Source: Geobacter sp.
GTDB lineage: Bacteria > Desulfobacterota > Desulfuromonadia > Geobacterales > Geobacteraceae
Assembly (NCBI GenBank): GCA_003574885.1
Contig: PJFC01000002.1
Span: forward strand, 62,001 to 126,000
DNA: 64,000 nucleotides
Reading direction: 5' to 3'
Shown: positions 21,628-39,134 of the stretch, in pieces
Layout: each line of letters begins with the position of its first letter
Numbering within the stretch: the first letter of the stretch is position 1
The notes under the pieces: generated by a model
Seen by the model: only the letters and a program-made list of their open reading frames with translations
What the model was told of the DNA's origin: nothing
Database searches by the model: none
Made by a program: the position numbers and the translations under genes

Positions 21628-21648
21628 GTGCGGAAGAGGGAGAACTTT

Positions 21649-23775
21649 GTGAGGCGCCTGCTCATTCTGCTGGTACTGCTCTGCAGTATTCCCGTGTTCA
21701 TCTATGCCAAAGAGTACAAGGTCGTCAGGTTTTCGACCGAAACTGCCGGTACCGTGGAATTCGACCACGACGTCCATCTGGCCAGGCTGGGGAATAGTTG
21801 TACGACCTGCCATAATTCCATCTACAGCGTGGCGAAGAAAAACCCTGCTGTCACCATGGCCGAGATGGAGAAGGGGAAGTCCTGCGGCGTCTGTCACGAC
21901 AAGCGTAAGGCCTTTGCTCTTGCAGACTGCGTGCGCTGTCACCGGGTTAAGGAAGTCCCCATCGAGATACCTGATTTCGGGACGCTGGTCTTCAGTCACA
22001 ACTTCCACCTGGGGATGTACAGTTGTGGCGATTGCCATAACAACCTGTTCAAGGCGGGACCTGACAATCCCCATTCTACCATGGCCCAGATGGAGCGGGG
22101 GGCCTCCTGCGGCGCCTGTCACGATGGCAAGACCGCCTTTACGGTCAAGGAAAACTGCACGAAATGCCACGCCGTCAAGGATATCTCCTTTGCCGCCGAT
22201 GCCCAGTTCAGCCACACCGTGCACCTGGCGATGTATGGTTGCGGCGACTGCCACAGTAAGGTCTTCGTTGCCGGTCCCAACAGCAAGCGCTACACCATGC
22301 AGGAAATGACGAACGGGCGATCATGCGGCGCCTGCCATGACGGCAAGACCGGTTTCTCGGTGCGGGGAGACTGCGGGAAGTGCCATAAAGGGGTGAAAGA
22401 GGTTAGCTTCAAGGCAGCGGATGCTCTCTTCAGTCACAAGTTCCACTTGTCCATCTACCGCTGCGCGGACTGCCACAGCGGCATCTTTGTCGGTGGTGCC
22501 GGCTCTAAACGGTACACCATGGCCGACATGGAAAAGTCCCGGTCCTGCGGTGCCTGCCACGACAGCAACATCGCCTTTTCCGTGGCGGGGAGTTGCAACA
22601 AGTGTCATACCGCCACCAAGGATATTACCTTTAACATCAAGGATGCGGGTACAGTGACTTTCAGTCACGATTTCCATAAGGGGATGTACGCATGTGACGA
22701 CTGCCACAACAAGGTGTTCCGCACCGGCAGTCAAAGCCGTCGCTATTCCATGTCCGAAATGGCAAAGGGACAGTCGTGCGGTGCCTGCCACGATGGGAAG
22801 ACAGCATTTACCGTCGCGGGGAACTGCGGTAAGTGCCATCCGGTCAAAGACATCACCTTTATCGACGATGCCAGCTTCAGTCACACCAAGCATCTTGAAA
22901 TGTACACGTGCTATGACTGCCACAACAAGCTGTTCAAGGCGGGGCCGGATAACACGCGCCATACCATGGGAGAAATGGAAAAAGGTATGTCGTGCGGGGC
23001 CTGCCACGACGGGAATACCGGATTCTCCGTCAAGGGTGACTGTAATAAATGCCACAAGACCACCATCGAGGTGACCTACAAAGTCCCGGAAACCGGGGTG
23101 ACCGTCTTTAGTCACAAGTTCCATACGGGTATGTACAAATGCACCGATTGCCATAATGGAATTTTTACTACCGGAAAGGCGGCGAAGCGCTATAAGATGG
23201 CCGACATGGAGCAGGGAAGGTCCTGCGGCGCCTGTCATGACGGGAAAATGGCCTTTACTGCCAAGGAAAACTGTACCAAATGCCACCCTGTAAAGGAGAT
23301 CATGTTCAAGGCGTCTGGTGCACGTTTCAGCCACAAATTCCACATCGAGGCATATAAATGCAGCGACTGCCATGACAAGATCTTCAGCCCGGGACTGTCG
23401 CCACGCAGGGCAACCATGCCGGATATGGAGAAGGGAAGGTCATGCGGCGCCTGTCATGACGGAAAAACGGCATTTACCGCCAGTGAAAACTGCGAAAAGT
23501 GCCATCCGGTGACAAAAGCTATACGCTACGAAATACCCGGAACGGTTGGCAATGCCCTCTTCAGTCATAAGGTCCACCTGGGGAGGGGATACACCTGTGC
23601 CGACTGCCACAAGAAACTCATCCCGACGGGTGTAGCGCGACGCCCGGTAACCATGAAGGCGATGGAGGATGGGAAATCGTGCGGCTCCTGTCACGGCTTC
23701 AGCATGGCTTTCAGCGTCAAGGATCAAAATAGTTGCGATCGTTGCCATCAACGGCGGTTCGTACCTGAGAAATAA
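21649..23775 (+). CDS. 27-heme c7-repeat cytochrome c, nanowire type
   Basis: Exported multiheme cytochrome of 708 residues. After a signal peptide (RRLLILLVLLCSIPVFIYA) it has nine consecutive ~75-residue repeats, each with three CXXCH motifs, 27 in all. A typical repeat reads FSHxxH, CxDCH, TMxxMExG, CGACHDGKTAF, CxKCH. This is the cytochrome c7 triheme architecture of the long chain-like 'nanowire' cytochromes known from Geobacter; extra His residues before each CXXCH can supply distal ligands, and the conserved Met before CGACH could ligate one heme per repeat. GTG at 21649 is preferred as the start because GAGGGAG lies 6 nt upstream; GTG at 21628 is possible. It sits at the end of the Che operon and is probably cotranscribed. 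A periplasmic electron-storage or wire role is inferred. Confidence 0.95.
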   Translation: MRRLLILLVLLCSIPVFIYAKEYKVVRFSTETAGTVEFDHDVHLARLGNSCTTCHNSIYSVAKKNPAVTMAEMEKGKSCGVCHDKRKAFALADCVRCHRVKEVPIEIPDFGTLVFSHNFHLGMYSCGDCHNNLFKAGPDNPHSTMAQMERGASCGACHDGKTAFTVKENCTKCHAVKDISFAADAQFSHTVHLAMYGCGDCHSKVFVAGPNSKRYTMQEMTNGRSCGACHDGKTGFSVRGDCGKCHKGVKEVSFKAADALFSHKFHLSIYRCADCHSGIFVGGAGSKRYTMADMEKSRSCGACHDSNIAFSVAGSCNKCHTATKDITFNIKDAGTVTFSHDFHKGMYACDDCHNKVFRTGSQSRRYSMSEMAKGQSCGACHDGKTAFTVAGNCGKCHPVKDITFIDDASFSHTKHLEMYTCYDCHNKLFKAGPDNTRHTMGEMEKGMSCGACHDGNTGFSVKGDCNKCHKTTIEVTYKVPETGVTVFSHKFHTGMYKCTDCHNGIFTTGKAAKRYKMADMEQGRSCGACHDGKMAFTAKENCTKCHPVKEIMFKASGARFSHKFHIEAYKCSDCHDKIFSPGLSPRRATMPDMEKGRSCGACHDGKTAFTASENCEKCHPVTKAIRYEIPGTVGNALFSHKVHLGRGYTCADCHKKLIPTGVARRPVTMKAMEDGKSCGSCHGFSMAFSVKDQNSCDRCHQRRFVPEK

Positions 23776-28478: not shown

Positions 28479-30884
28479 TCAGAACTTGTAGCCGAGACCC
28501 AGGGACCCGGTGTAGGTGGTGCCGTCCTGGTCGCCGTAGACATATGCGGCATCATCCAGGAACTGGGAGAACCCTGCCTGGGCTGTCATGTAGAGACTGG
28601 GTGTGAAGTTGTAGGTTCCGCCAAGATTGCACTCAATCTGTTTATAGCTCAGATCTGAGTAGCTGCTGTACCGGGAAAGATTATCGGTCGAATAAAGCTG
28701 GTTCATAATGTAGTCGGCAGTGTTGATGGGAGAGAGGTAAAGTCCATTAATCTCAGCCGTAGCATCATTGTACATGGCGTTTGCGTGCAGCTTCAGCTTG
28801 TCGGTTGCCTGGTAAGTCGTGTTCAACGAAAGGGTATGCACATCGGTGTTGTACTCGAAATTGCCACATGTCGACCCAAACTGGGTCGATGGAATAACCC
28901 CCGCTCAGCCATCGTACCATCCCTGGCAAAAATCAGTCTTGGATGTCTGCTTCATGTAGTTGTAAGCGAGGGTTATGTTCATTTTGTCAACGGGCGCATA
29001 CCATAGGGAAATTCCCGGTGAATGGGTTTGCTGCTTCCAGGTGGACTTGTTGAGGTCGTTCTCCTCCAGCTTCACGCGGTAGTAGGCGGTTGTTGAAAAT
29101 CTTGCTGAAGGAGACCATGTGGCGGTGATTGTGCCTTCGTGAATACTGTCCGGCTGGTTGGAAAGGTCTGCAGTACGCTGGTCGTAGAATGAGACGCCAT
29201 AGGTCGGACCGCCACCTACCGTTGTTGCGAAGGGAGCAGCGACCGATGTCGTCGGGACCAGAGCGGCATCCGGAGTATGGAACGGGTTGTCGATATTCTT
29301 GTAGTTGTAGCCGAGACGCATCGAAAGCGTATTGGTCGGCCTGCTGCTGACCGATGCCTTTACCTGGTGTGTCCGGGTTTCTCCGAAATAATTATCGCTT
29401 CGGTCCTCGTTCTTGTATTCATAGCCCAGGCGCATGGTAGTCCGCTTGGCAAGCCGGTATACGGTATCCAGTCCCACCGTCGCCACATCCCTCGTTATGA
29501 CCGAATATCTTGTCGGCGACAGGGAATCAGTCGTTGGTGTAAATTGGTTGGGTACCGTACCGTAGGTAGCGACGTCAACGATCGGCAGTGTGTTGAAAAA
29601 TACCCTGACGTCGTCGTTTTCGAGCTTCTCAGCCTTTCCGCGCATGGTTATTGTCAGGTTTTTCGTGGGAGTCGCGGTTATCCTGCCACCGTATGCATCA
29701 TAGGATGTCTTTAGTTTATCCCTGTCCAGTGAAAAAATGCCTGGATCGCCGGACTTTGTGCTGTCAACGGTTGTGTTCACATAACTGGCCACCATGGTGG
29801 TGTTGCTCGGCAGGTCGAGCTTGGCCTTGACGACATGACTGTCCTTGTGTGAATCAGGGGTTACGTCATACCTGAGCCCGCCGTTGCGGTAGTCATTGAG
29901 TAGCCTGTTATCGAATGCCTGGGCGCCGGTCAGGTAATTTGCCGGGAAATTGGCAGCGGGTGAGAGTGCCGGGTCATAGGTCATCGTCGGGTCGGCTCCG
30001 TGCTCCCGGAACTGTCTGTTCATGTAGGAATAATTCAGGGTCAGGAGGCCGAACTTCCCGGTGACTCCGGTCGTTATGTCACGGGTGTTTTCGTTGATGT
30101 TTTTGCTCCCCCCGGTGACGTGACACGATGTGCATTTGCTCATGCCGATGGACTGCTCCATCCCCTTGCGGTCTTCGTTCCGGTAGGTGAAGTGGAACGT
30201 CACGTTCGGAAGCTGGGGGAGGGTAAAGTCGGAATGGCTCTTCCATTCCTTGCGCACAACTGAAAAATTGGCATTGGGGGTCAGATCTTCGCCGAATACC
30301 GAAGCCCGCCCTATCTGCTGGGCCGTGTATCCTGCCGTTGGAGCCCAGGAGTTGGCGACATATCGGGTTCCGGTGGCCGTATTAGTTATCAGGAAGCCCG
30401 GTACAAAGTTGGGGGTAATCGTATTGCTGCTTTCAAGGTATGCAGTATTGGCGCCTATAGCCGTCGGGGTTCCTGTAAAAGCTGAAGGTGGTTTGGGGAT
30501 TGCGGCGTCCAGATAGTTTATCTGGTCATGGTCAAGCCAATGCTGAAATACATCGTAGCTGAAACTCGATTTAAAGGCCCGCTTGACGTCTACTTTTGCA
30601 TGATGGGTCTGGTCCCTGGAGTCCATGAATCTGGAGTCACCATCCAGGGTGATGCCTGCTCCACTGACACTAAGGTCGACTTTACCATAGGGGTTGACCC
30701 CCGGTTTGGTTCTTATGGAGGAATACTCATTCACGCGTCTGATGTCGTCCGATACTGCCAGCCCTGCACCACCGGTTTCAATGGTCGCCTCCAGACCCTT
30801 TGAGGCCTGTTCCGCGAAAAGTGAAATCGGAGCGTAGAGTACCAGTACCGGCAAAACTATCAGCCATTTTCTGGATTTCTTCAT
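28479..30884 (-). CDS. MtrB/PioB-like outer-membrane porin with in-frame TGA (possible selenoprotein)
   Basis: Beta-barrel partner of a periplasmic multiheme cytochrome, of the MtrB/PioB decaheme-associated family. A signal peptide (MKKSRKWLIVLPVLVLYAPI...LFA) is followed by many alternating amphipathic strands; the C-terminus ends GLGYKF, a normal terminal aromatic outer-membrane signal. One CTSCH heme motif lies mid-protein. Codon 660 (28907-28905) is TGA; the frame continues unbroken for 141 codons that look like the same barrel, so the two parts are one gene. A SECIS-like hairpin follows the TGA, so selenocysteine is plausible; nonsense mutation or sequencing error is the alternative. Without readthrough the barrel would lose its last strands. 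ATG at 30884 has AAAGGAG upstream. It lies 30 bp behind the decaheme gene, which it probably houses. Confidence 0.8.
28871..28907 (-). promoter_or_regulatory. SECIS-like hairpin after in-frame TGA
   Basis: Minus strand: TGA (28907-28905), 15-nt spacer, arm TCGACCCA (28889-28882 read as its complement pair), loop GTT (28881-28879), arm TGGGTCGA. The 8-bp stem is perfect and CCA/TGG can pair beyond a small internal mismatch. Bacterial SECIS elements typically need an apical loop 16-37 nt after the UGA, a short loop with a G in the first two positions and an upper stem of 4-16 bp; all three hold here. A chance palindrome in coding sequence cannot be excluded. Confidence 0.5.
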
Positions 30885-30914: not shown

Positions 30915-31985
30915 TTAACGAGTAAGGCCCTTGGCTCCGTCGGGCCAGCCTCTAGATCCATCGGTGTTAACGGAAGGTGCTGTTTGCGAGGGGAGGTCGC
31001 TGCCATGGACCTGGGAATGGCAGACGGTGCATTTGGTGCCAAATGCTTTAGCCCATCCTTCAGCGCCGTGACTGCTCTCAAACTGAACCGAATTGGTTGC
31101 TGAGAGCGCTCCGCTTGGATTGGTGTTGGCATCGTAAGCCACGTTGCCGGGGGCGATGGTCGCGCCGGTCCTGATGGTATGGAAGTGGCTTTCGTGGCAC
31201 TGGAGGCAGAGGAATGGCTCGTTCTGCTTGAGGAGATTGTTTGCAACACTGCCGTGGGCGTCATGACAGATGGTGCAATCCTCCTGAACCGGGGCGTGTT
31301 CGAACACGAAGGGCCCCTGATACCGGCTGTGGCAGGTAAGGCAGAGGTCGTTCGCACGCTCCTCGGTCTTGAGACTCTTCTGCCCGGTGCCATGGGGTTG
31401 ATGACAGCTCGTACAGGTCATCTTCCCTTCCCGTATCGGGTGGTGTGAGGGGAACTCGGCCTTGGCCCGGTACTCCTGATGGCATGAGTAACAGAGATCC
31501 GGCTGGGGAAGCTTCAGACTGTGTTTGGCTTTCTTGCTCTGATGGATTTTGTGGCAGTCGGTACAGGTAACGTCATTGAGCGCGTGCTCATTGCCGGCCC
31601 ATTCCATGTGAGTGCCTGCTGAATGGCACTTGAGGCAGATTGCCGAGGCTTGATCCGGGGAGATGCTCGAGAAGGAGAGAATCTGGGCCGTATCACCTGC
31701 AGCTGCGTGGATGCTGCCGGCTCCGTGGCAGGACTCACATCCCTTGGTTCCACCCATTACCTCGAAGTCAGCAAGTTTGCCATGGATAGTGTCGGCAAAC
31801 GGTTCGACGATCTTCTCATGGCACTGGGCGCAGTCTTTGTCGCCAACGTACGTTGCGCCTTCGATCACCGGCAGTGTCAGGATCCGTTCCCTGATAGCCC
31901 CTGTGGCGCAGGCAGCGACTACTGTTGTCGCTGCCAGGAGCACGGCCAGCCGCACGGCACTGGTGTGCAAAATGTTTTTTCGCAT
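30915..31985 (-). CDS. Decaheme cytochrome c, MtrA/DmsE-like lipoprotein
   Basis: 356 residues with ten CXXCH motifs (CAQCH, CESCH, CLKCH, CTDCH, CYSCH, CTSCH, CLTCH, CTICH, CLQCH, CTVCH), spaced as in the MtrA/DmsE decaheme family. The signal ends in a lipobox-like VVAAC with Cys at 26, so it is probably a lipoprotein rather than a soluble periplasmic protein as in Shewanella MtrA. It should sit in the barrel encoded by the next gene and pass electrons across the outer membrane. No extracellular MtrC/OmcB-type partner is encoded beside it. ATG at 31985 has AAAGGAG upstream. Confidence 0.88.
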   Translation of the reverse strand: MRKNILHTSAVRLAVLLAATTVVAACATGAIRERILTLPVIEGATYVGDKDCAQCHEKIVEPFADTIHGKLADFEVMGGTKGCESCHGAGSIHAAAGDTAQILSFSSISPDQASAICLKCHSAGTHMEWAGNEHALNDVTCTDCHKIHQSKKAKHSLKLPQPDLCYSCHQEYRAKAEFPSHHPIREGKMTCTSCHQPHGTGQKSLKTEERANDLCLTCHSRYQGPFVFEHAPVQEDCTICHDAHGSVANNLLKQNEPFLCLQCHESHFHTIRTGATIAPGNVAYDANTNPSGALSATNSVQFESSHGAEGWAKAFGTKCTVCHSQVHGSDLPSQTAPSVNTDGSRGWPDGAKGLTR

Positions 31986-32155
31986 AACTGCTCCTTTCGT
32001 GATGCTGCTACTGCTGTGAATATCACGTCGAAGCCTGCTGATCTGCAGGCAAAGCCATACGCGCCCGTCACCTCCTTCCTTGCATTGGCATGAATGATGT
32101 ATGAATATCGTATCGTTACCTTCAGTAGGCACTCTAACCGCTATTTGGCCAACAA

Positions 32156-32191: not shown

Positions 32192-32224
32192 TTAATAGAT
32201 TGTGTTTTGTGGAGGGGAAAGGCT

Positions 32225-33151
32225 TTGGAAACCTGCTATTTGAAAACACTTTTAATCGTTGCGGAGACCGGCAGCTTCTCGAAAGCCGCGCATGAACTCC
32301 ATGTCTCACAGTCCGCGGTTTCACAGAGGGTAAAGTTTCTGGAAGACCGTTATGGCCACCAACTTCTCGATCGGTCCAGTCCGCAGCTCACGGCAACCGA
32401 GGTCGGGAGCCTGGTGATCAGGAAGGCAGAGAAAATTCTTGGATTGGAGCTTGAGTTGCAGGAAGAGATTCGTCAGGTGGGGAGGGAAAACCGATTGGCA
32501 CTTTCATGCACCCCCGCCTTCGGTATTGCGTACCTGCCGGGGATGCTTAACAGATTCATGCGCCAGAATTCCGATGTCGTGGACTTCAAATTCATCTTTT
32601 CGACGCCGGAACAGGCCATACGGGGATTACAGGAAAGAACTTTCGATGTTGGGGTTATTGAGCACTGCGGTGATCTGGAAATGTGCGATTTCAAGACCCA
32701 TACACTTCCCCAAGATGAACTGGTGTTCATCAGTTCTCCGGAGCTGGGGATTCCCGAAGGGCATGTCCCTGTCGAGGCTCTGCTGGGGCATCTGCTCTTT
32801 ACCCGTAAGGAGGGGTGCAGTTCCAGGAAGCTCCTGACGAAGAACATGGTGTCCATCGGACGTACTATCCATGATTTTGTCAAGGTGCTGATTTATGATG
32901 ATCTTCGTCTCACCGTACAAAGCGTTATGGGGGGTGAGGGGGTCTCATTCGTTTCCAGGAGTCTGGTGAAAGATCAGTTGCTCGGTGGTCAGCTGCGGGA
33001 GCACCGTGTCGATGGTTTCTGCCACAACCGTTTGCGGACTGTGGCGATAAACAGGAAGCGCGCTCTTGACCCGACCCTGAAGATGTTTGTCGAGTGCATT
33101 TTCGCCACGCTCCCCCAGCACGACGAGTGTAGTCTCAATGCTATAATATGA
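32225..33151 (+). CDS. LysR-family transcriptional regulator
   Basis: 308 residues. N-terminal winged helix-turn-helix (YLKTLLIVAETGSFSKAAHELHVSQSAVSQRVKFLE), followed by a LysR substrate-binding domain (LSCTPAFGIAYLPGML, DVGVIEHCGD). The start is taken as TTG at 32225 because GGAGGGG lies 7 nt upstream and the family pattern begins there. It is divergent from the decaheme/porin operon and convergent with the MCP gene, so it most likely controls the conduit genes. The effector is unknown. Confidence 0.9.
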   Translation: METCYLKTLLIVAETGSFSKAAHELHVSQSAVSQRVKFLEDRYGHQLLDRSSPQLTATEVGSLVIRKAEKILGLELELQEEIRQVGRENRLALSCTPAFGIAYLPGMLNRFMRQNSDVVDFKFIFSTPEQAIRGLQERTFDVGVIEHCGDLEMCDFKTHTLPQDELVFISSPELGIPEGHVPVEALLGHLLFTRKEGCSSRKLLTKNMVSIGRTIHDFVKVLIYDDLRLTVQSVMGGEGVSFVSRSLVKDQLLGGQLREHRVDGFCHNRLRTVAINRKRALDPTLKMFVECIFATLPQHDECSLNAII

Positions 33152-35662: not shown

Positions 35663-37048
35663 TTACCAATCCTCTTTCTGCTTCTCTATCAACTGATTGA
35701 AATAAATCTCAGGATTGGTCAGCTTTTTGATCTCCTTGTCTGAATAGCCGAGATCCTTGAAATTGATGACACCGTTCACTCCGTGGCAGTTGATGCAGTT
35801 AAGTGCCTTGGACTTTGTGACCAGGTGGTTGCTGCCGAAATAGATGGTCTGCCAGCCGGGAACGGCGTTTTTTGCAATGTCCGCAGGGTTTTTCATGCCA
35901 AGGGTCCGCGCAGCGGATTCAACCCCTGCACGTGCATTGCCATTTGACATGGGAGGGGCAAAGTCCATGGAGAGAAGATTACCGGTCTTTTTGTCGTAGA
36001 ACGCTTTCCCCATGTAAATCTTGAATGGATATATCTTGCTCTTTCCATCCTTGCGGCTTCCATTTGGTCCGATGAAGTGCTGCTCGTTACGGACGGTCTT
36101 GTTGTACCAAGCATACACCGGTGCGGTGGCGTTTGCTTCCTGCTTCAGTGTCGTCGGCTCGTAGAAACCGTCGCCGCCTTTTTCCCATACGGTGAAGTCT
36201 TTCGCTACGGCCCCGCCGGTTCGGGGGATATGGCAGGTCTGGCAAGCGATCTTGGAAGTATGGTTGTTGTAGGCAGCAGAAAGGCCTTTATGTGGTTTTT
36301 CGCCATGGCAGTCGGTACAGGCCACGCGAACCCCGTCATTGGCCCAGTTGTTCGGATCGAAACCGGTCGGGATTTTATGGTTTTTAGCCTTGTGACAATC
36401 CACGCAGACCATTCCCTTTGCTGCATGGGCGTCTGTTTCCTTGGTGAAGGAAAAGCCCCGCTTGACGAGCACGCCGCCACCAGCTGCCTCATGGCATACC
36501 ATGCAGTTTTTTACCGTCGGCTTGGCGATGGCAAGCGCCGCCTTGGTGCTCCGGTCCTGTCCCATGACGACCTGCCCTTTTTCATTCTTGAACGGTTTGC
36601 GCTGCCGGAAGTCGTAATCGGTTGAGTGGCAGACCAGGCAGTCAATGGCGTTTTCGGCCTCGGGTCCGGTACTCCCCACGTCGCTCACGTGGTTGCCCGG
36701 GTGGCAGGTGTTACAGCCGGTGAACTTGGATTTCCCCTCGGCGTTCTTGGGGATCTCTTTCAGGTTGTTGACAATGTCGTTCCCGTTGCACATGGTGTAG
36801 ATACGGTTTTTCATGCCGTATTCCTTCTTCGGGTCCAGGTTTGAAACATTGTCAACTTTTGAGGCGTGTTTCCAGTGCACCGAGTCGATAAAGCCTTTGG
36901 TGGTGCCGGGATGGCATTCTTCGCAGGTGGCTGGCCCCTTGTAGCCGTTTTTCTCGATCTCGCTCTTGCCCGGATGTTCTGCTCCCCATACGCCGGCTGC
37001 ACAGAGTACTGCAAGCAGGGCCGAAGAGATCGTCACCGTCAGTTTCAT
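35663..37048 (-). CDS. Octaheme c-type cytochrome, tetrathionate-reductase-like
   Basis: 461-residue exported cytochrome with a signal peptide (MKLTVTISSALLAVLCAAGVWGA) and eight CXXCH motifs (CEECH, CNTCH, CLVCH, CMVCH, CVDCH, CTDCH, CQTCH, CINCH). Heme spacing and the SVHWKH segment after the first heme resemble the octaheme tetrathionate reductase (OTR) family, whose physiological substrate is uncertain. Periplasmic location is expected. ATG at 37048 has AAAAGGAG upstream. It is a single-gene unit with its own terminator and AT-rich promoter region. The family assignment is moderate. Confidence 0.75.
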   Translation of the reverse strand: MKLTVTISSALLAVLCAAGVWGAEHPGKSEIEKNGYKGPATCEECHPGTTKGFIDSVHWKHASKVDNVSNLDPKKEYGMKNRIYTMCNGNDIVNNLKEIPKNAEGKSKFTGCNTCHPGNHVSDVGSTGPEAENAIDCLVCHSTDYDFRQRKPFKNEKGQVVMGQDRSTKAALAIAKPTVKNCMVCHEAAGGGVLVKRGFSFTKETDAHAAKGMVCVDCHKAKNHKIPTGFDPNNWANDGVRVACTDCHGEKPHKGLSAAYNNHTSKIACQTCHIPRTGGAVAKDFTVWEKGGDGFYEPTTLKQEANATAPVYAWYNKTVRNEQHFIGPNGSRKDGKSKIYPFKIYMGKAFYDKKTGNLLSMDFAPPMSNGNARAGVESAARTLGMKNPADIAKNAVPGWQTIYFGSNHLVTKSKALNCINCHGVNGVINFKDLGYSDKEIKKLTNPEIYFNQLIEKQKEDW

Positions 37049-37091
37049 GATATCTGCTCCTTTTTCTTGATAGGTTAAACTGCTGTTAATA

Positions 37092-37135
37092 ATTCGTAAA
37101 TTCATTGTATATAATATATTCATATAAACGAATTA
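37092..37135. promoter_or_regulatory. Inverted repeat upstream of octaheme gene
   Basis: AATTCGT (37092-37098) and ACGAATT (37129-37135) form an inverted repeat 30 bp apart in a very AT-rich stretch upstream of the octaheme gene. ATAAACGAATT resembles the ATAAGCGAATT motif near the LysR gene, so both may bind the same regulator. Confidence 0.35.
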
Positions 37136-37143
37136 ATGGTCGG

Positions 37144-37177
37144 AAAAAAATTGCAGCGCTTAAAAATCACTGCAATT
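37144..37177 (-). terminator. Terminator of the small exported protein gene
   Basis: AATTGCAG / CTGCAATT with a 13-nt loop, followed on the minus strand by seven T, about 30 bp after the stop codon of the 108-residue gene. Confidence 0.7.
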
Positions 37178-37207
37178 CAACGTATCGAATCTGAAACGTG
37201 CTGCGAC

Positions 37208-37534
37208 TCAGCAGCCGGCAGTTTTTCGGAACAGTTTGCTGACATTCTTGCCGTCGATGACCTCGTACTTGCAGCGAATCTCGTCACCAACAACGATGCG
37301 GTGGTCCTTGAACTTGTCAAGGGTCAGATCGTCGTTGATGGTAATTTCCACCAGTTTTTCGGTTTTGTTGTCTTTGAGGGTGGCGGTTGCAGTCTTGGCG
37401 TCCTTGCCGGCGATGTCGATTTTGGTGATGACGCCGACCATTTTGATTTCTTCGGCGCTGGCGACTTTGCTGAAGGACAGGACGCTGAGGGCTACGAGTG
37501 CGAACACAATCATTACTGCGACTGACTTTTTCAT
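37208..37534 (-). CDS. Small exported protein, unknown function
   Basis: 108 residues with a clear signal peptide (MKKSVAVMIVFALVALSVLSF...ASA). The mature ~82 residues are charged, with alternating beta-like stretches (IKMVGVITKIDIAG, KLVEITINDD, HRIVVGDEI), resembling a small OB- or beta-barrel fold, and one Cys at the C-terminus. No family is recognised. It lies between the octaheme cytochrome and a barrel protein and has its own AAGGAG site and terminator, so a periplasmic role with these is plausible. Confidence 0.75.
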   Translation of the reverse strand: MKKSVAVMIVFALVALSVLSFSKVASAEEIKMVGVITKIDIAGKDAKTATATLKDNKTEKLVEITINDDLTLDKFKDHRIVVGDEIRCKYEVIDGKNVSKLFRKTAGC

Positions 37535-37631
37535 TGTTATTCTCCTTTTTAACTTCGTGCTTACATCAGTACTTTAAATTGTACCCGATAAATTACAAGA
37601 CGGAAACAATTATTTGTTGGCTGATTGTAAT

Positions 37632-37656
37632 GCGAGGGGGCATTGAGCCCCCTCGC
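37632..37656 (-). terminator. Terminator of the DUF3373-like porin gene
   Basis: Perfect 10-bp stem GCGAGGGGGC / GCCCCCTCGC, loop of 5, located 9 bp after the stop codon. There is no T-run on the minus strand, so it may terminate weakly or protect the transcript end. Confidence 0.55.
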
Positions 37657-37664
37657 TACAAGGA

Positions 37665-39134
37665 TTAAAACTTCACTTCAAATGTTCCGTAGATATCCTG
37701 TGCTCTTTTGAGCGGTGTCATCAGCTGAATGCTTGATGCCGTCAGATCGGAAATTTTCGTGGATGAACCGACCCAGTTGTTGCTGCCTGTGTACTGGAAG
37801 TCATAGTACTGGTAGCCGAGACGGAAGAACACCTTGCTCAGGTAGGAAGAGATGGGCTCAAGCTTCAGTTCCTGGATCAGGTAGGCTTCGTAGACGTTGC
37901 CGCGGGTGCCGAGTTTGCTGGTCCACATGTCGTCGGCTGCCGGATCGAAGGGGATCCAGTTCTTGGAGCCGTAGTTATATTCGAGACCGAGCTTAGTCCT
38001 GGTTGAAGGGAGGTCATAGCGTGCGCCGACATACACACCATAGCCGGTTTTGTCTTTGGAGGCTTCAGGACCGGCAAAGGTTCCATTCAAAAGACCAAAA
38101 GCGCCGAATAAGCGATCTTGATTGGGGTGGGTTACGCTCAGTCCACCGCTTGCGAAGAGGTTGAGGTTACCCACGCCGACATTTTTCAGCGTGCTCAGGA
38201 GACCCATGCCGTACCAGTCGATGTCGCCAAGCTCGACGCTAGGAGCGTTGGGATTGTCGAAGATGTTCATGCCGCGATTCCACTGGAAATCGATCCGGAG
38301 CGGGTCGGTGTCGAGGGGAACGATCTGTACCCCAAGCATGTCGGTGTCCCGCAGGTTATTCTTGGTACTATACCCGGCATCAAAGCCGCGACCGTAGCAG
38401 AACTTGGCGTAGGCGCCGGGGAGTGCGTCGATGTCCGGTGCCCAGCCGAGGGTCATGCCGTCAAAGGCATAGTCGACAAGAAGGCCCGGAACACCACCGT
38501 TGCCCGGGCGCTCGTTGTTCTGCCGGACGTGGGTAGGGGAACCGGCGGTGGAGGGGCGGCGGCCGACAGAGAACCAGATCGGCTGCTCGGCGATGTTGCT
38601 CCAGGTGGCGAAGACCTGGTCGACGCGCAGGGCGCTATCGCTCGGGACGTGACCGATGCTGCCATCCATGACGTAAGACCTGTCGGCAAAGAATCCCGCA
38701 TTGGTAGCCGTGTCTGTCTGGCTTCCGCTGGTCTTGTACATGAGAAGACGGGCAGTGACCGTAACGTCTTTGGTGGCCTTTGCCTTCAGGTTGAGACCGA
38801 AGCGGTTTGTCATCAGTGCGTCGTTCTTGACTGTGGTTCCGTTTTGAGTAACGAATTGCGGATTGCCGGTGGCGTCAAAACCATTGAACACAGTAGAAGA
38901 GGCGGTGTGACCCTTCAGGGAATCTACTCTGAACCGATAGTCGCCGCCGATGGTGAGCCACTTGCCAATGGATTTACTCTCGGTAGTCTTGGTCTGCTGC
39001 TTCAGTGCCTCGACTTCCTTGGTCAGGTTGTCGAGCTTCTGCTGCAGGTCCTGCTCTGCAGCATAGGCGGACAGGGGAAGCGCAAGGCTTGCCACTGCAG
39101 CGCCCGTCATGATCGATCGAACAAATGTACGCAT
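37665..39134 (-). CDS. Outer-membrane beta-barrel protein, DUF3373-like
   Basis: 489 residues. A signal peptide (to about residue 26) is followed by a short coiled coil (LQQKLDNLTKEVEALKQQ) and about sixteen amphipathic strands, ending in FEVKF, a typical barrel terminus. The layout and sequence resemble the DUF3373 proteins found near cytochromes in Geobacter and related metal reducers. It may form the pore of another electron conduit or a solute porin. GGAG lies 5 nt before the ATG. Confidence 0.75.
   Translation of the reverse strand: MRTFVRSIMTGAAVASLALPLSAYAAEQDLQQKLDNLTKEVEALKQQTKTTESKSIGKWLTIGGDYRFRVDSLKGHTASSTVFNGFDATGNPQFVTQNGTTVKNDALMTNRFGLNLKAKATKDVTVTARLLMYKTSGSQTDTATNAGFFADRSYVMDGSIGHVPSDSALRVDQVFATWSNIAEQPIWFSVGRRPSTAGSPTHVRQNNERPGNGGVPGLLVDYAFDGMTLGWAPDIDALPGAYAKFCYGRGFDAGYSTKNNLRDTDMLGVQIVPLDTDPLRIDFQWNRGMNIFDNPNAPSVELGDIDWYGMGLLSTLKNVGVGNLNLFASGGLSVTHPNQDRLFGAFGLLNGTFAGPEASKDKTGYGVYVGARYDLPSTRTKLGLEYNYGSKNWIPFDPAADDMWTSKLGTRGNVYEAYLIQELKLEPISSYLSKVFFRLGYQYYDFQYTGSNNWVGSSTKISDLTASSIQLMTPLKRAQDIYGTFEVKF

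Follow-up and report, generated by a model that had tools for sequence, protein, structure and literature searches.

The locus and its reading frame

The window (the whole 64,000-nucleotide stretch of Geobacter sp. DNA analysed here) carries on its reverse strand a gene for an outer-membrane β-barrel protein of the MtrB/PioB type, preceded by a gene for a decaheme cytochrome c and, divergently, by a regulatory gene (Table 1). Read directly, the barrel gene starts with the ATG at 30884 and is interrupted by a single in-frame TGA, codon 660 of 801, as the first-pass annotation had described. Downstream of this codon, 141 sense codons lead to the C-terminus SLGLGYKF and a terminal TGA at 28481-28479. 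Mechanical ORF calling splits the gene into a 665-aa ORF up to the internal TGA and a 120-aa ORF beyond it. In the ORF list of the window, TGA also terminates at least five other genes and is therefore an ordinary stop codon there.

Table 1. Features of the barrel-decaheme locus (positions in the window)
Feature	Position	Strand	Remarks
MtrB/PioB-type outer-membrane β-barrel gene, almost certainly for a selenoprotein	28479..30884	-	801 codons through TGA; GSU2204 family, NF041027
UGA codon 660, almost certainly encoding selenocysteine (Sec)	28905..28907	-	TGA in the same column in 45/50 distinct homologues, window included
Bacterial SECIS-like hairpin	28871..28889	-	8-bp stem TCGACCCA/TGGGTCGA, GUU loop; loop starts 23 nt past UGA
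Cys653, 7 residues ahead of Sec	28926..28928	-	Cys in 31/45 TGA sequences
CTSCH (residues 251-255), motif for haem c attachment within the barrel protein	30120..30134	-	Invariant in 8-sequence alignment
GSU2203-family (DmsE-like) decaheme cytochrome c gene, 10 CXXCH	30915..32132	-	NF041028, 469.7 bits (cut-off 325); directly upstream
Divergent LysR regulator gene (NCBIfam: multiheme cytochrome-associated)	32207..33151	+	NF041036, 416.2 bits (cut-off 210)

The barrel protein scores 629.8 bits against NF041027, the "GSU2204 family CXXCH-containing (seleno)protein" model (cut-off 350); the match stops at residue 659, so that the UGA is the very next codon. It also passes Pfam MtrB_PioB, PF11854 (53.1 bits; gathering cut-off 23), and misses the cut-off of TIGR03509, the model for MtrB/PioB decaheme-associated outer-membrane proteins (30.9 vs 240.05 bits). 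One Sec and the CXXCH motif are common to the GSU2204 family and the window protein, nothing speaks against membership, and the protein is almost certainly a selenoprotein of this already listed family. The first-pass annotation knew of no described MtrB-family selenoprotein, and in this it was mistaken. In addition to the named model, an MtrB/PioB family outer membrane β-barrel protein appears among the selenoproteins listed in PMC9312934 (2022), and a selenoprotein table in PMC13188914 (2026) names the GSU2204 family, NF041027, as an MtrB/PioB selenoprotein. (The Sec motif is entered as '-' in these tables, which give no role for it.)

The coordinates of the decaheme gene are those of its longest ORF; by inspection, translation probably begins at the ATG at 31985, with a lipoprotein-like start. 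The other neighbours of the decaheme-barrel pair are the LysR gene, which is divergent and upstream in one of the relatives (L022) as well, and unrelated genes across a strand change. The pair is not an MtrCAB-type three-part conduit: it consists of decaheme and barrel, with no gene for an extracellular cytochrome in the pair. A plasmid search returned no match.

Conservation of codon 660 and of the hairpin downstream

The Sec column is covered by 50 distinct sequences, the window's included (four duplicates were dropped, and some genomes are represented by two paralogues). The codon in this column is TGA in 45, TGC in two, and GGA, AGC and CCG in one each, the CCG row (L097) being a weak match with a weak alignment. 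The residue preceding Sec is Gly, and the base following the UGA is G, in all 45 TGA sequences. A scan of genome contigs yielded seven relatives (61, 56, 57, 33, 33, 29 and 33% identical to the window in the alignment), every one of which has TGA at the same codon. The family is rare within the window's order, where 6 of 141 genomes have a match at E 1e-15 (four matches span the TGA and two end at contig ends); an even draw from the phylum gives 49 matching genomes in 395 at the same E value, own genome included.

The first-pass annotation had suggested looking for Cys or TGA at this codon in homologues, and had named ordinary non-Cys sense codons unaccompanied by a hairpin as evidence against Sec. 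Three of the 50 sequences (GGA, AGC and CCG) are of the latter kind, the hairpin being scored by the strict pattern defined below; two of them form a separate clade and the third is the weak alignment. The 45 TGA and two Cys sequences are not of that kind.

Purifying selection acts on the codons downstream of the TGA: all six pairwise comparisons among four close sequences give pS values of 0.51-0.86 and pN values of 0.10-0.36. (In the first 12 codons past the TGA, pS is only 0.16-0.41, a value that comes from ~10 synonymous sites.) One TGA in a draft assembly might be a sequencing error or an inactivating mutation in a decayed gene, and a few homologues do have an additional in-frame stop (TAA in L063, TAG in L072) besides the conserved TGA, probably through error or decay. 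Persisting selection past the TGA argues against this explanation of codon 660 and the 44 other distinct sequences with TGA at this codon rule it out, making it exceedingly improbable.

The sequence on the 3' side of the TGA reads 15 nt (28904-28890), TCGACCCA (28889-28882), GTT (28881-28879) and TGGGTCGA (28878-28871), which bears out the spacer, perfect stem and loop of the first-pass annotation. By itself this hairpin is not exceptional: the 60-nt fold has an energy of -17.0 kcal/mol and z = -1.37, without significance against 200 shuffles, 19 of which fold equally well or better. A bSECIS screen with energy passes 44 of the 45 TGA genes, yet also 4 of the 5 non-TGA homologues, and a stricter pattern was adopted for that reason: a contiguous stem of at least 5 bp, a 3-6-nt loop carrying G in the first two positions, and a UGA-to-loop distance of 21-23 nt. 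(This pattern was fixed after the hairpins had been inspected, and its control is the in-frame positions of the same loci.) The strict pattern is found in 45/45 TGA genes, in 0/5 of the others and at 742 of 23,441 control positions (3.2%); the control rate rises to 18.9% when the spacing may be anything from 16 to 37 nt.

Covariation was assessed in 26 sequences of one spacing class. In these, pairing occurs in 93.4% of cells (86.5 +/- 1.1 after shuffling; 0/500 shuffles reach the observed value) and the covariation score is 0.286 (shuffled 0.133 +/- 0.021; 0/500), with a control slide of +1 still giving 0.172. Two of the five covariation measures, which count pairs or pair types, do not stand out from shuffles (169/500 and 81/500). 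Columns 23 and 33 pair as GC in 12 sequences, AU in nine, CG in three and GU in two; column 33 falls at the third position of a Gly codon and can vary without change to the protein. Judged from the aligned sequences, the hairpin is conserved and covarying, and the comparison lifts the case far beyond chance.

The genome of the window contains the Sec genes that the first-pass annotation had proposed to look for: tRNA-Sec with anticodon TCA (74.7 bits, cut-off 47), selA (616.7 bits, cut-off 267.9), selB (369.2 bits, cut-off 242.25) and selD (369.9 bits, cut-off 125), the last itself bearing an in-frame TGA. Co-occurrence with tRNA-Sec was set aside as a test of Sec: 34 of the 39 TGA genomes contain tRNA-Sec, as do 7 of the 8 genomes with other relatives, so that it has no discriminating power. 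Two relatives carry selB ~1.6-1.8 kb away from the porin gene (L022:14041-16097 and L023:14149-16059), and in L022 it is adjoined by tRNA-Sec.

The two homologues with TGC at the Sec column, L082 and L089, form a clade (support 0.998) that lies within the Sec forms (support of the next two nodes, 1.000) in a tree of 48 sequences (unrooted; midpoint rooting was used for drawing). This nesting implies that Sec was replaced by Cys, the likely history of the L082/L089 lineage. The Cys form L082 remains within NF041027 (354.6 vs 350 bits). L079 and L083, with neither Sec nor Cys, make up another clade (0.997). The locus of L089 (a paralogue in genome G185) has a further in-frame TGA at base 2293, ~90 codons earlier (RSGY-TGA-TKSG), for which a second Sec, an error and decay are candidate readings. 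The Sec-to-Cys clade provides natural pairs for testing what Sec contributes.

The UGA might also be decoded with no part for the Sec machinery, through leaky termination, a near-cognate tRNA or a reassigned code, and plain read-through would indeed yield a barrel as well. This is highly improbable: TGA is an ordinary stop of other genes in the window, and the hairpins at the bacterial SECIS position in 45/45 TGA genes, the complete Sec machinery and the Sec/Cys exchange among homologues all speak against it. With TGA in 45/50 homologues, a hairpin in every TGA gene and the machinery in the genome, the proposal that UGA 660 encodes selenocysteine is almost certainly correct.

The barrel, its decaheme partner and related systems

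An AlphaFold2 model of the barrel protein, built from 8 sequences, has a mean pLDDT of 52.9 and a pTM of 0.49; strands mostly reach 70-90, and residues 1-209 and the loops, that of Sec included, fall below 50. The best Foldseek match of the model is MtrB of the Mtr complex (6r2q_B; E 4.1e-12, TM 0.41/0.48), the next having E 1.7e-6. A sequence search of solved structures gave three matches (E 0.064-0.93), with no outer-membrane conduit among them. Shewanella MtrB is, like the window protein, a barrel paired with a decaheme, and is not known to contain Sec; the two differ in that structural alignment gives 13% identity and that the window pair comes without an MtrC-like gene.

In this weak model the barrel has ~25-26 strands, of which about the last five lie downstream of the UGA, and Sec 660 sits within a loop (residues 656-670) between strands 634-655 and 671-692. 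The C-terminal strand of such barrels usually ends in the periplasm. Counting back by strand alternation, the Sec loop and the CXXCH loop (residues 249-255) are therefore both predicted to be extracellular, and would lie roughly opposite one another on the barrel rim. The CTSCH motif suggests that a haem is attached to the barrel protein itself.

The pairing with the decaheme recurs among the TGA genomes. Of 39 such genomes, 37 have an NF041028 match as the same-strand neighbour of the TGA gene; in a 38th (G394) the match adjoins the N-terminal half of the split gene, on another contig, and in G373 the pieces are apart, at contig ends. NF041028 is absent from all 14 control genomes. The GC content of the locus of one TGA-bearing member (L055, in G177) is 0.38.

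A decaheme with a GSU2204-type protein, as in the window, is found in G. sulfurreducens, where GSU2203 is OmcK and where the expression data in PMC4070692 have GSU2203 and GSU2204 both up, 2.68x and 2.36x with hematite, and 1.65x and 1.53x with magnetite. The table in that paper labels GSU2204 a putative cytochrome, and the window is likened to GSU2204 by description; the link of the window pair to the Geobacter OmcK locus is probable. The OmcKL conduit of Candidatus Desulfofervidus auxilii HotSeep-1, a porin with an OmcK-like cytochrome that is comparable to the window pair, is reported to be expressed 4-fold above oetABI (PMC10553843). Its porin may be a member of the GSU2204 family; the words selenocysteine and selenoprotein do not appear in the paper's main text. 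Another electron-transfer protein with a predicted Sec comes from the bacterial group of the window: ExtKL of Geobacter is described in passages of PMC5877670 and PMC6148476 as a predicted multiheme cytochrome selenoprotein. In ExtKL it is the cytochrome, and in the window the barrel, that is the selenoprotein.

A literature search of partial coverage found nothing on the role of Sec in the GSU2204 family, and the main texts of PMC2398784 (apparently reference 61 of PMC13188914) and PMC5029168 do not contain the words MtrB, outer membrane or cytochrome. The present analysis adds to the existing records the conservation and covariation of the SECIS-like hairpin, the Sec-to-Cys clade, the adjacency of the decaheme, the predicted extracellular position of the Sec loop and the probable tie to the OmcK locus.

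A possible role for selenocysteine in an electron conduit

The conserved UGA, the conserved and covarying hairpin, the Sec machinery, the Sec/Cys exchange and the gene pairing can all be read from the sequences. What very probably explains them is insertion of Sec at UGA 660 in a barrel that serves as the sheath of a decaheme conduit. SelB, tRNA-Sec and the downstream hairpin would direct the ribosome to decode UGA 660 as selenocysteine; the last ~5 strands would then be synthesised and the barrel would close around the upstream-encoded decaheme, forming a two-gene electron conduit through the outer membrane. It is the adjacent decaheme that suggests conduit function. Sec would be placed in an outward-facing loop, on the same face as the CXXCH of the barrel, where a redox role at the outer end of the conduit is the leading candidate, held tentatively and with somewhat less than even confidence.

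The first-pass annotation had placed Sec between two Cys as its partners in a redox-active or metal-binding site. Such a site at Sec is possible; the flanking Cys are not conserved. Position -7 from Sec is Cys in 31 of the 45 TGA sequences, Ser in 12 and Trp in two, and a Cys 13 residues past Sec is present in four of the 45, confined to close relatives of the window. A purely structural Sec, forming a selenenylsulfide with Cys653 (or, as a variant in the close relatives, with the Cys 13 residues past Sec) to hold the outer loop in place and staying outside the electron flow, would suit the 31 sequences with Cys at -7. It is rather doubtful, in view of the 14 with Ser or Trp there and of the Cys forms, which have Ser (L082) or Ala (L089).

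Alternatively, Sec may be an axial ligand to the barrel's own CXXCH haem: both are conserved, and both are in loops of the same predicted face. The roughly opposite positions of these loops on a barrel of ~25-26 strands, as counted in the model, cast doubt on direct Se-haem ligation. Moreover, CXXCH is retained in L079 and L083, which have no Cys or Sec at the aligned column, and in L095, L096, L098 and L099, which have no aligned residue there, and the proposal is very unlikely.

The redox role can be taken further, with Sec as the catalytic site at which electrons leave a minimal conduit of two genes for minerals or partner cells. The decaheme would take electrons through the barrel, and the outward-facing haem together with Sec would replace the extracellular cytochrome of MtrCAB. 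This extension is speculative and, on present evidence, unlikely; if true, selenium would be needed for extracellular respiration and perhaps also for the OmcKL conduit in methane-oxidising consortia. More generally, a long-fixed Sec in an outer-membrane electron conduit would link selenium supply with the extracellular electron transfer of bacterial metal reducers and syntrophs. Routine annotation takes the UGA as the end of the gene, which can cost the last barrel strands, so these conduits may be on record as truncated.

Other cytochrome genes lie elsewhere in the window. At 35663-39134 an octaheme-type cytochrome (8 CXXCH) is found close to a barrel-like protein of DUF3373 (PF11853, 510.8 bits), and the two are perhaps another cytochrome-barrel set. 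A 715-aa protein encoded at 21628-23775 is made up of repeated cytochrome c7-type units (PF14522, 9 stretches, 556 bits).
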